Origin: Buchnera aphidicola (Brevicoryne brassicae) | GTDB taxonomy: Bacteria > Pseudomonadota > Gammaproteobacteria > Enterobacterales > Enterobacteriaceae | Reading direction: 5' to 3' | Assembly: GCF_005082825.1 (NCBI RefSeq) | Contig: NZ_CP034882.1 | Location: 1-64,000 of the forward strand | Length of the DNA: 64,000 nt | Part shown: positions 19,029-57,497 of the stretch, piece by piece | How positions within the stretch are numbered: the stretch's first letter is position 1 | Layout: every line of letters starts with the position of its first letter | Notes under the pieces: model-generated | Seen by the model: only the letters and a program-made list of their open reading frames with translations | What the model was told of the DNA's origin: nothing | Databases searched by the model: none | Program-made: the position numbers and the translations under genes

Positions 19029-20687
<1,659 letters not shown>

Positions 20688-51703: not shown

Positions 51704-52849
51704 CTAATAACAAAATTTATATATTAATTTATTAATAATTTTTTTAGTAGGTTTAATAAAAGATAAATCTAGATATTCATCTGGTTGATGTGCTTGTTTA
51801 ATAGATCCAGGGCCTAATATTAACGTTGGTGCTATCTTTTCTAAAAAAGGAGCTTCTGTACAGTAATTCACTGTTTTACTATTTAAATTGCATAGTTCTT
51901 CTATTATTTTTATATTATTTTTTTTATGTGAACATTGATAAGGGGGAACACTAGAAAAAAGTTTTTTGATAATGATACGATTAGACCATTTTTTTATGAT
52001 TGATTTTAACTTTTCTTGAATTAAAATTTCTATTTGTGTTAGAGTAAGTCCTGGTATTGGTCGTATTTCAAATTTTAATGTACATAAAGAACAAATACGG
52101 TTAATTGTATCACCTCCATGTATAGAAGATAAGTTCATAGTTGAATATGGAATAGAAAAATTTTTATGATTGTATTTTTTTAAGTCATTTTTCAAAAAAA
52201 TTAAGTGTTTAATAATATTATTCATAATTTCAATACTATTAATGCCGCTATCTGGATTGCTAGAGTGTCCGGTTTTACCAGTTACTTGAATTAAGTAAGA
52301 GATATGTCCTTTATGAGAGCTTATTAGTTGTAAAGAGGTGGGTTCTCCAACTATTATGCAATCTGGTTTAATAATTGCAGATTTTATAAAATATTTAGCT
52401 CCAGACATGTCCGTTTCTTCATTGGCAGTGGCAAGAACATAAATTGGTTTATTTATTTTTTTTATATTTATAGAAGATATTACCTCTAATACAAAAGCAA
52501 AAAAACCTTTCATATCTACTGTTCCTAATCCGTAAAATCTATTATCGACTTCAGTCAACATAAAAGGGTCTTTTGTCCATGTTTTTTCATCAAAATTAAC
52601 AGTGTCTGAATGTCCAGATAAAAGCAATCCTCCATGTCCTGAACCAATAGAAGCTAACATGTTAAATTTATTGTTAGTACATGGTACTTGATTAATTTGT
52701 ATTGAAAACTTCAAATCAGAAAAATAATTCGATAACAGATCAATAAAGCCTTTATTGCTTTGATCTATGTGTTTATTATCACTGCTAATTGTAGGAATTT
52801 GGATTAATGAGCGATATATTTCTGTAAAAGAAGGTATTTTTTTTATCAT
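51704..52849 (-). CDS. argE: Acetylornithine deacetylase ArgE
   Basis: Zinc hydrolase of the M20 family that releases ornithine from N-acetylornithine. It has 381 residues (E. coli 383). Metal and catalytic motifs are LSGHSDTVNF, GLGTVDMKGFFAF and ANEETDMSGA, and the C-terminal GPGSIKQAHQPDEYL is conserved. It is divergent from argC, as in E. coli. I saw no intact ArgR box in the 146-base gap. Confidence 0.96.
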   Translation of the reverse strand: MIKKIPSFTEIYRSLIQIPTISSDNKHIDQSNKGFIDLLSNYFSDLKFSIQINQVPCTNNKFNMLASIGSGHGGLLLSGHSDTVNFDEKTWTKDPFMLTEVDNRFYGLGTVDMKGFFAFVLEVISSINIKKINKPIYVLATANEETDMSGAKYFIKSAIIKPDCIIVGEPTSLQLISSHKGHISYLIQVTGKTGHSSNPDSGINSIEIMNNIIKHLIFLKNDLKKYNHKNFSIPYSTMNLSSIHGGDTINRICSLCTLKFEIRPIPGLTLTQIEILIQEKLKSIIKKWSNRIIIKKLFSSVPPYQCSHKKNNIKIIEELCNLNSKTVNYCTEAPFLEKIAPTLILGPGSIKQAHQPDEYLDLSFIKPTKKIINKLIYKFCY

Positions 52850-52995: not shown

Positions 52996-54003
52996 ATGTT
53001 AAATGTGTTAATTGTTGGTGCTAGTGGATATGCTGGTGCAGAATTAGTTAATTATCTGAATTGTCATAGGTTTGTTAATATAAAAAAAATACTTGTTTCA
53101 GAAAATAGTTTAGATGTAGGTAAATTATTTTCTGATATACATAAACAATTTATAAATGTTGTAGATTTAAGATTTGAAGCTATAAGTAATTTAAAGTTGA
53201 TTAATAAAGATTTTGACGCAGTTTTTTTGGCAACAGATCATGAAATTAGTCACTCTCTTGTTCCTTTTTTTATATCTTGTAATTGTGTAGTGTTTGATCT
53301 TTCTGCTGCTTATAGATTAAAAAAAAGTAGTTTTTATTTAGAATATTATAATTTTTTTCATCAGTATCAACAATTATTAAAAAAATCTGTATATGGATTA
53401 GCAGAATGGAATGAACGTGATATTATCACATCACAATTAATTGCGGTACCAGGATGTTATGCAACTTGTGTTCAATTAGCATTAAAACCTCTTATAGAAG
53501 AAGATATTCTTTGTTAAACTTATACACCTGTTGTTAATGCTGTTAGTGGAGTTAGTGGTGCAGGTAGAAAAGCTAATTTTAATAATAGTTTTTGTGAGGT
53601 AAGTTTACAACCATATAATATTTTTACTCATCGCCACACTCCTGAAATTATAGAAAATTTAGGAATTCCAATAATTTTTATTCCAATTTTAGGTTCTTTT
53701 TCTCGGGGTATTATTGCTACTATTACATGTAAATTAAAGTCTAATATTAGATCAATTGATGTTCGTAGCATATTTTACAAGTTTTATAAAAATAAACCAT
53801 TAATTCGTTTATATGATACATCTTTACCTAGTATTAAAACAGTTGAAAAATTACCATTTTGTGATATTGGTTTTATGGTTAAAAATAATTTCATAGTTAT
53901 TGTAACCGCTGAAGATAATTTATTAAAAGGAGCAGCTTCTCAAGCAATACAATGTTTTAATATTCGTTTTGGTTTTTCTGAAATTGAATCAATAATCACT
54001 TAA
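52996..54003 (+). pseudogene. argC: N-acetyl-gamma-glutamyl-phosphate reductase ArgC, interrupted by one in-frame TAA
   Basis: NADPH-dependent reductase, third step of arginine synthesis. The frame runs from ATG at 52996 to TAA at 54001-54003, about the length of the 334-residue E. coli protein, but codon 174 (53515-53517) is TAA. The first part has [13 protein letters not shown] (NADP binding) and the catalytic Cys in VPGCYATC. After the stop the same frame continues without another stop for 161 codons: [21 protein letters not shown] (catalytic His) and the conserved ending [16 protein letters not shown]. No frameshift is needed. It may be a recent pseudogene, a sequencing error, or a read-through gene. 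Only the first 173 residues are translated conventionally, and they lack the catalytic His. Confidence 0.93.
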
Positions 54004-54024: not shown

Positions 54025-54798
54025 ATGAATCCATTAGTTATTAAATTAGGGGGAGTTCTTTTAGAAAGTGATAATGCTATGACGCGTTTATTTGAAGCGT
54101 TAGTTGATTATCGAAAATCCTATAAACGTTATGTGTTGATAATTCATGGAGGAGGTCGTTTAATTGATGATCTAATGAAAAAACTTAATTTACCAGTTAA
54201 GAAGAAAAATGGTTTACGTGTTACTTTATCTGAACATATTAATGTTATTACAGGTGCATTATCTGGAACTGCTAATAAAACTCTTCTTGCACGAGCATTA
54301 AAACACAATATAAACGCTGTGGGATTATGTTTAGCTGATGGAAAAAGTGTTGATGTAGAAAAATTAGATAAAGATTTAGGACATGTAGGAAAAGCCATAC
54401 CAGGATCACCTTTATTTTTAAACAAACTGTGTAAAGAAGGTATTTTACCTATTATTAGTTCTATAGGAATTACTAATGATGGTTTGTTGATGAATGTTAA
54501 TGCCGATTTAGCAGCAGCTGCTTTAGCAACTACTTTACATGCTAATTTGATTTTATTATCTGATATTAGTTCAATTTTAGATGGAAAAGGTCAAAGAATA
54601 GAAGAAATTAATAGTATTCAAGCTAAAAAATTAATTACACAAGGAATTATTACTAATGGTATGATTGTTAAAGTAAATGCAGCATTAGAAGCTGCAAATA
54701 TTTTAAATCGTGCTGTAGATATAGCAAGTTGGCAAAACGCTGAAGAATTAGAATTGTTATTTAACGGTGTAAACATTGGTACTAGAGTCTCAGTTTAA
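54025..54798 (+). CDS. argB: N-acetylglutamate kinase ArgB
   Basis: Phosphorylates N-acetylglutamate, second step of arginine synthesis. I choose the ATG at 54025 with GAGG 9 bases upstream (54012-54015). This gives 257 residues starting [14 protein letters not shown], as in E. coli. Two upstream ATGs at 54007 and 54010 overlap the ribosome-binding site region and are less likely. Motifs are [22 protein letters not shown] and [10 protein letters not shown]. Confidence 0.96.
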
Positions 54799-54846: not shown

Positions 54847-56052
54847 ATGAAAAAAATGAATAAAGTTGTTTTAGCATATTCTGGTGGTTTAGATACTTCA
54901 GCAATTATTCCATGGCTTAAAGAAAATTATAATGTTGAAGTTATTGCGTTTGTAGCTGATATAGGACAATCTAAAAAAGATTTAAATGGAATTGAAAAAA
55001 AAGCATTAGAATCAGGAGCGTCTAGTTGTCACGTATTTGATTTGAAAGAAGAGTTTATAAAAAATTATGTTTATCCAGTTTTAAAAACTGGTGCTTTATA
55101 TGAAGGTAACTACTTATTAGGAACAGCGTTAGCTAGACCTCTCATAGCAAAAAAACAAGTAGAACTAGCATTAAATATTGGTGCAGATTCATTATGCCAT
55201 GGTGCCACTGGAAAAGGAAATGATCAAGTTCGCTTTGAAATGGCTTATGCATCATTAGCTCCAAATTTGCATGTAATAGCACCATGGCGTGAATGGAATC
55301 TTCATTCAAGAGAATCTTTATTGAGATATTTACATGAAAGAAATATTCCAATAACAGCAACATTAGAAAAAATCTATAGTAAGGATGAAAATTCTTGGCA
55401 TATTTCTACAGAAGGAGGATTACTTGAAGATCCTTGGAATGAATCTAATGAAGACTGTTGGAATTGGACAGTAAAACCTGAAGATGCTCTAGAAAAACCT
55501 GAATATATTTTATTAGAATTGACAGAAGGTTGTGTAGTATCTGTTAATAAACTGAAATTAAATCCATTAAAATGTGTAGAAACATTAAATAAAATTGGTT
55601 CTAAACATGCTATTGGTAGAATGGATATGATTGAAAATAGATTAATTGGAATTAAGTCTCGAGGTTGCTATGAAACACCTGGAGGTACTATTATTACAAC
55701 AGCTATAAAAGCTATTGAACAATTGGTTTTAGATCGAGAAAGTTTTCAATGGAGAGCAAAAATTGGTTTAGAAATGTCTTCAGTTGTTTATGATGGTCGT
55801 TGGTTTTCTCCAATACGAAAATCTTTGCAGGCTGCTGCTAATGAATTAGCATCTGAAATTAATGGAGAAGTAATATTAAAATTATATAAAGGTAGCGTTA
55901 TAGCCGTGCAAAAAAGATCTCCTAATTCATTATATTCTGTAGAATATGCCACTTTTGGTGAAGATGAAGTATATAATCAATGTGATGCAAATGGTTTTAT
56001 TCGTCTTTTTTCACTTTCTTCAAGAATACGTGCAAAAAATAAATGTAAATAG
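54847..56052 (+). CDS. argG: Argininosuccinate synthase ArgG
   Basis: Joins citrulline and aspartate with ATP. It has 401 residues, belonging to the shorter (about 400-residue) subfamily with [19 protein letters not shown] at the N-terminus, not the 447-residue E. coli type. Other motifs are [13 protein letters not shown] and [13 protein letters not shown]. It lies between argB and argH, whereas E. coli has argG elsewhere. An argCBGH order is known in other gammaproteobacteria. A second ATG at 54856 is also a possible start. Confidence 0.95.
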
Positions 56053-56117: not shown

Positions 56118-57497
56118 ATGACACTTTGGGGTGGAAGATTCGTTAATGAATCAGATGAATTGTTTAAAAAATTTAATAGATCTTTGTCTTTTGATTATAT
56201 TTTAGTAAAAGAAGACATAACTGCTTCAATTGCTTGGTCTAAAGCTCTTATGAAGAGCAATATTATTAGTGGAGAAGAACAAAAAAAAATAGAATTAGCA
56301 CTGCTTGTTTTATTAAAAGAAATAAAAAATAACACTCAAAATATTCTTAAAAGTGATTATGAAGATATTCATAGTTGGGTAGAAGCTAATCTTATTAAAA
56401 AAATAGGAAAATTAGGAAAAAAACTACATACAGGTCGTAGTAGAAATGATCAAATTACAACTGATTTAAAATTATGGTGTAGAAAAAAAATCTATGTTTT
56501 ATTAGATAATATTATTGAATTACAAAAAAATTTTATTTTAAATGCTGAATCTAATCATAATGTTATTATGCCAGGTTATACTCATTTACAACGTGCTCAA
56601 CCTATTACTTTTTCTTATTGGTGTTTAGCTTATGTTGAAATGTTGAAACGAGATTTTAGTCGTTTAAAAGATGTTTTAAAACGATTAAATCAAAGTCCTT
56701 TAGGTTCTGGCGCTTTATCTGGAACGGGATGGAAAATAAATCGTCAAGAACTTGCTTTATCTATGGGATTTGATTCAGCAACTAATAATGCGCTTGATAG
56801 TGTTTCTGATCGAGATTATGTTGTGGAGCTTTTGTCATCGGCTTCAATTAGTATGATGCATCTATCACGATTTTCTGAAGATCTAATATTTTTTAATTCG
56901 GGTGAAGCTGATTTTATTGAATTATCTGATTCGATTACATCAGGTTCATCTTTAATGCCTCAAAAGAAGAATCCAGATGCATTGGAATTGATTCGTTCTA
57001 AGTGTGGTCGTGTTTACGGTTCTTTAACTGCCATCTTAACAGTGTTAAAATCGCTTCCATTATCTTACAATAAAGATATGCAAGAAGATAAAGAATATTT
57101 ATTTGATTCTATAGAAACATGGAACGATTGCTTATGTATAGCAATTTTAATTTTAAAAAACGTAAAAATAAAATACAAGTCATGTCGTAAAGCGGCAGAA
57201 GAGGGATATTCTAATGCAACAGAAATTGCAGATTATTTAGTTAAAAAAGGTGTTACTTTTCGTGAAGCACATAATATATCTGGTCAATTAGTACTTCAAG
57301 CAATTAGAGAAAAAAAATCTTTAAATAACTTAAAATTATCTACATTTAAAATGTATAGTAGTCTTATTGAAGATGATATATATAAAAATATTACTTTAGA
57401 AGCGTGTCTTAAAAAAAGATTGTCTCAAGGTGGTGTATCACCATGTCAAGTTTATCGAGAAATTGAAAAAGCAAAAAAAAGATTACATATGTCTTAA
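56118..57497 (+). CDS. argH: Argininosuccinate lyase ArgH
   Basis: Last enzyme of arginine synthesis; splits argininosuccinate into arginine and fumarate. It has 459 residues (E. coli 457). It begins [19 protein letters not shown]. The superfamily signature [15 protein letters not shown], with the catalytic serine loop, and [13 protein letters not shown] are intact. A long hairpin follows and likely ends the argCBGH transcript. Confidence 0.97.

Follow-up and report, generated by a model that had tools for sequence, protein, structure and literature searches.

Probable recent nonsense inactivation of argC within a continuing loss of the glutamate-to-ornithine branch in the Buchnera symbiont of Brevicoryne brassicae

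The argC gene of Buchnera aphidicola from Brevicoryne brassicae is interrupted by an in-frame TAA. This is very probably a genuine nonsense mutation, by which the gene was inactivated only recently, as the glutamate-to-ornithine branch of arginine synthesis (argA, argB, argC, argD and argE) is being lost. The gene lies in a window of 64,000 nucleotides (positions 1 to 64,000 of NZ_CP034882.1), the genome of which is referred to as G000 and its relatives by corresponding numbers. The initial annotation had described argC as a full-length frame with a single internal stop, and that description holds: the TAA is codon 174 of 336, and reading of the frame on both sides of it shows no further stop or frameshift. 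There is likewise no indel in argC in comparison with two relatives. The two sides of the stop match consecutive stretches of the ArgC family model TIGR01850 (model positions 2–167 and 172–338 of 345), and the search tool, which continues through the stop, gives the gene 377.2 bits (cut-off 233.6). The family score is reached by reading across the stop in this way, and no single open frame carries both ArgC domains.

The stop falls between the two domains of the protein (Table 1). The conserved Cys154 precedes it and the HRH motif follows it, so that the earlier placement of these residues to either side is borne out as far as their positions go; we take the cysteine and the histidine of the motif to be catalytic. 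The N-terminal part, with the NAD-binding domain, aligns to residues 4–174 of the solved ArgC structure 2g17, and the C-terminal part aligns to residues 179–337 of the same structure. The lesion removes an essential domain in the manner of a nonsense pseudogene, since the part beyond the stop holds the dimerisation domain as well as the HRH motif.

Table 1 Positions of the features discussed. Coordinates without a prefix are those of the window; the others are given with the genome and contig.
Feature	Position	Strand	Evidence or remark
ORF of 548 residues, presumably groEL	19041-20687		
argE, acetylornithine deacetylase, intact	51704..52849	-	NF003474 575.1 bits, cut-off 460
argC, whole frame	52996..54003	+	TAA at codon 174
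argC, N-terminal part	52996..53514	+	NAD-binding domain, conserved Cys154; PF01118 2.6e-26
argC, premature TAA	53515..53517	+	codon 174
argC, C-terminal part past the stop	53518..54000	+	dimerisation domain, HRH motif 212-214; PF22698 2.5e-36
argC, in-frame ATG past the stop	53875		residue 294
argC, natural stop	54001-54003		
argB, acetylglutamate kinase, intact	54025..54798	+	TIGR00761 220.3 bits, cut-off 151.3
argG, argininosuccinate synthase, intact	54847..56052	+	NF001770 588.6 bits, cut-off 334
argH, argininosuccinate lyase, intact	56118..57497	+	TIGR00838 625.6 bits, cut-off 279.5
priA frame break	G000:C1 about 127677-129790		L206
truA frame break	G000:C1 about 218866-219611		L210
mutT-like ORF, two stops	G000:C1 about 224912-225250		L211
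murF frame break	G000:C1 about 245927-247299		L212
argD, in-frame TGA	about G000:C1:572815-572813	-	
argD, one-base insertion	near G000:C1:573293-573311		two frames meet near C1:573300

The four other arginine genes of the window, argE, argB, argG and argH, have open frames and score above the cut-offs of their family models, in agreement with the initial reading of them as intact. The branch has a second broken gene outside the window, argD, with two lesions: an insertion of one base and a TGA in frame. The inserted base adjoins a run of seven T and is lacking in the six relatives aligned; slippage could in principle act on this insertion, but not on the TGA. Open frames are present in G000 for argA, argB, argE, argF, argG and argH. 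Across 36 Buchnera genomes, argA is above cut-off in 25 (G000, G002 and G016 included) and argD in 23, the latter being G046 and the 22 genomes other than G000 in which argC is above cut-off. G000 is the only one of the 36 with argC but not argD above cut-off. Conversely, G046 is the sole genome in which argD is above cut-off yet argA and argC are decayed. Ornithine carbamoyltransferase and argH were each above cut-off in all 16 Buchnera genomes searched for them, and argG and argH are both open in all 31 genomes compared. The pathway is failing in its first half, from glutamate to ornithine, whereas the second half, from ornithine to arginine, is retained. Of the earlier suggestion of a very recent loss of arginine synthesis, the recent loss therefore stands but its extent does not, since argF, argG and argH are open and only the glutamate-to-ornithine branch is affected.

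The argC gene was above the family cut-off in 23 of the 36 genomes, G000 among them; on checking, 21 of the other 22 proved to have unbroken frames, and that of G051 was reported stop-free. Four genomes contain fragments of argC only (G002, G016, G020 and G046), and nine contain none. The arg region was compared in 30 of the 35 relatives (all except G019, G041, G045, G046 and G051), 21 of which have an intact argC. Codon 174 is a sense codon in every one of these 21, specifying Lys, Asp, Ser, Asn, Arg or Gly, and the seven codon types found there confirm that the position is poorly conserved. The proposed origin of the TAA from CAA by a C-to-T change is unsupported, because CAA is present at this codon in none of the 21. 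Some relatives gave apparent internal stops in argC, which were discarded when the translations showed natural terminators or codons just past them. A stop shared by G000 and G016 was also considered and rejected, as the decayed argC of G016 has a sense codon at that position and carries other lesions.

Trees were built on argG and argH of 31 genomes, from both nucleotide and protein sequences. G000 groups with G012, G016 and G007, with support of 97 in the nucleotide tree and 92 in the protein tree, and support within this group is lower (88 and 57; 64 and 64). All three of these nearest relatives have lost argC, with G016 retaining a decayed copy. In total, argC is broken or missing in ten of the 31 genomes (G000, G002, G004, G007, G010, G011, G012, G015, G016 and G020), which occupy ten separate terminal branches on the trees found if no regain is allowed, a count of losses that could drop because of weak nodes in the tree. 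Within the four-genome group of G000 alone, argC would have been lost four times on the tree found, or fewer if the weak inner nodes are wrong.

Rates of change were compared among 22 of the 31 genomes, those in which none of the six genes has been lost; because only six-gene genomes were used, the G000 branch in this set reaches behind its three argC-less relatives. On that branch the dN/dS of argC is 0.41 (interval 0.24–0.69), compared with about 0.15–0.28 for argC in seven relatives and about 0.13–0.24 for the other arg genes of G000, although the faster change of argC is only suggestive because the intervals overlap. The G000 branch holds 7.6% of the protein change of the argC tree, the highest share among the 22 taxa for this gene; the corresponding shares are 6.8% for argA and 4.2–5.2% for argB, argE, argG and argH, and that of argH is also the highest in its column. 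Against the raised dN/dS, only one of the 136 argC columns that are invariant in the 21 other taxa is changed in G000 (those 21 taxa range from 0 to 4), so that the two measures of relaxed constraint pull apart. This single change bounds the neutral time of argC at about 0.015 substitutions per site, compared with a branch dS of about 0.21. For argD, dN/dS on the G000 branch is 0.23–0.24, versus 0.16–0.22 in controls, with overlapping intervals. Given the few changes in conserved columns and the near-control rate of argD, the lesions in both genes look young.

The genome of G000 comprises 656,629 bases in three contigs. Its pLeu plasmid of 7,866 bases is 99.9% identical over 99% to CP113407.1, from Brevicoryne brassicae Buchnera, and all 54 records that match this plasmid are from Buchnera; a 2,913-base contig had no match in the plasmid search. 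The remaining genes of the window were surveyed with the ORFs of G024, a relative in which argC is intact, and 50 of the 52 ORFs were matched. Among these 50, argC is the sole gene that is really broken, and in-frame TAA codons of the kind that would be expected inside several conserved genes under recoding interrupt no other real gene of the window. The other ORFs flagged in the window were dismissed as four double hits to paralogues, one ORF cut by the end of the window and one antisense ORF, the last bearing stops and lying opposite the 548-residue ORF that we presume to be groEL. In a further 160 kb of G000, eight of 127 ORFs were flagged, namely truA, murF, priA, YdiK, a mutT-like ORF, two double hits to paralogues and one short weak match. 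Of these, truA, murF and priA have genuine frame breaks, and the ORF that we take to be mutT-like has two genuine stops. Internal nonsense codons are otherwise confined to this mutT-like ORF in the 160-kb sample, except for a stop in the frameshifted piece of murF and another at the last-but-one codon of YdiK. The breaks of truA and murF coincide, in the protein alignment, with spots rich in Lys and hence probably rich in A, where slippage on A tracts might act.

An error of sequencing or assembly, the true codon 174 being a sense codon, is an unlikely source of the TAA. It would account for an argC that is perfect but for one substitution, and the frame breaks of truA, murF and priA in the further 160 kb could themselves be indel errors. 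A substitution differs, however, from the homopolymer type of error, and argD carries a nonsense codon and an insertion of its own; an error would hardly explain why both genes carry nonsense substitutions. Two further points favour a real mutation: no gene other than argC is really broken among the 50 window matches, and the clade is losing exactly the glutamate-to-ornithine branch. The broken argD speaks both against a lone assembly error and against the idea that the UAA is tolerated, through read-through or recoding that yields enough full-length ArgC, since ArgC by itself would not restore the branch. Such read-through, to which we assign a very low probability, would be consistent with the almost untouched conserved residues of argC, with a dN/dS well under 1 and with the intact state of argA, argB and argE. 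The frames of RF1 and RF2 are nevertheless both open, and the search for a suppressor tRNA or release-factor change that the initial annotation had proposed gave no candidate: no tRNA with a UUA anticodon, which would read UAA, is present among the 30 tRNAs listed, a list that may be incomplete because tRNA-Ile(GAU) and tRNA-Ala(UGC) are absent from it. TAA is moreover the usual terminator, ending 38 of the 49 matched window ORFs.

Slippage and assembly of the enzyme from two parts fare no better as routes to a working ArgC. Symbiont genes rescued by slippage resemble argC in being otherwise intact genes with one lesion, but slippage corrects homopolymer indels, whereas the argC lesion is an in-frame nonsense codon and thus different in kind. 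The comparison of argC with two relatives yielded no homopolymer indel, leaving slippage nothing to correct. Both ArgC domains are conserved, as would be expected if a separately started C-terminal part paired with the N-terminal part, yet the only ATG, GTG or TTG in frame past the stop lies at residue 294, deep inside the domain (rare starts such as ATT are outside this listing), and a two-piece enzyme is accordingly rated as exceedingly improbable. Recent nonsense loss of argC has evidence to contend with as well: the single change in 136 conserved columns would be equally expected of a gene that still works, argA, argB and argE are still intact, and the assembly carries other genes with single lesions.

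If argC has been inactivated by the nonsense mutation, the ribosome would stop at codon 174 and release a 173-residue fragment that has neither the dimerisation domain nor the HRH motif. Synthesis of ornithine from glutamate would then cease and leave only two sources of arginine: ornithine that the aphid provides and that the retained ArgF, ArgG and ArgH convert, or dietary arginine.

Two relatives offer a view of the branch at a more decayed stage. The terminal-branch dN/dS values of the decayed argC and argE are 0.77–0.86 and 1.38 in G016 and 0.66 and 0.96 in G002, with wide intervals (0.48–3.57 over the four genes) and with the argE figure of G016 weaker because some of the G016 sequence is unreadable; argD is in fragments in both genomes. 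In the same two genomes argA and argB are stop-free and as constrained as argG and argH, with dN/dS of 0.12 and 0.14 for argA and 0.14 in both for argB (G016: L132, L091; G002: L131, L090), although the terminal branches include time before the loss and the pattern is seen in only two lineages. For comparison, 0.1 neutral substitutions per site would yield about 7 stops in argA and 4–5 in argB. Conserved columns of argA are changed at 6 of 282 positions in G016 and likewise in G002, compared with 1–3 in three controls and 0–6 over the 22 taxa. The argB of G012 (L138), which is open in a genome without argA, argC and argE, is relaxed, with a dN/dS of 0.51 and 14 of 139 conserved columns changed. 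In G020 argA is decayed, yet argB has a dN/dS of 0.27, with a wide interval. Parallel replacements are also observed: the conservative replacement R298K is found in the argA of both G016 (L091) and G002 (L090), at a column that does not vary among 21 genomes with an intact pathway, while in argB A83V and I251V are shared by G002 and G012, and R45 is changed in G020 and G012.

Constraint on argA and argB where argC, argD and argE are gone suggests that this two-enzyme stump may do something else. We therefore raise, as a tentative and rather doubtful proposal, that loss of the branch can start with argC, argD and argE while purifying selection preserves ArgA and ArgB for some use other than the making of ornithine, and that G000 may be entering such a state. 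A retained ArgA-ArgB pair might supply N-acetylglutamate or its phosphate to another step in the symbiont or the host.

A mutation in Buchnera argC has been described previously as the cause of the dietary arginine need of a pea aphid line (Vogel and Moran, cited in PMC3890641). As far as that citing source conveys it, the case resembles that of G000 in the gene, the symbiont genus and the natural origin of the mutation, which is there tied to an arginine need; it differs in being variation among lines, whereas G000 is the symbiont of another species and has a broken argD too. The Buchnera of Uroleucon ambrosiae has lost argECB, argA and argD, which are listed among its major deletions in PMC3164680, and arginine-rich phloem or a host ornithine aminotransferase is proposed by the authors as the reason. 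The ornithine branch affected is the same as in G000, but there the genes are deleted, whereas in G000 the loss is only beginning, and argA, argB and argE are intact. G000 is an earlier-stage case of this already published loss of the ornithine branch in Buchnera. Within the titles, abstract openings and passages searched in the open-licence literature, no account was found of the argC and argD lesions of G000 or of the retained ArgA-ArgB pair.

The symbiont of Brevicoryne brassicae would thus provide an early snapshot of the loss of a nutritional pathway in an obligate symbiont, at a stage when two genes of the branch have only recently been broken and the other three remain intact. Cabbage aphids are predicted to need either arginine from the diet or ornithine of their own making, and a separate role of ArgA and ArgB in the related genomes, if true, would mean that the opening steps of arginine synthesis serve a new function.
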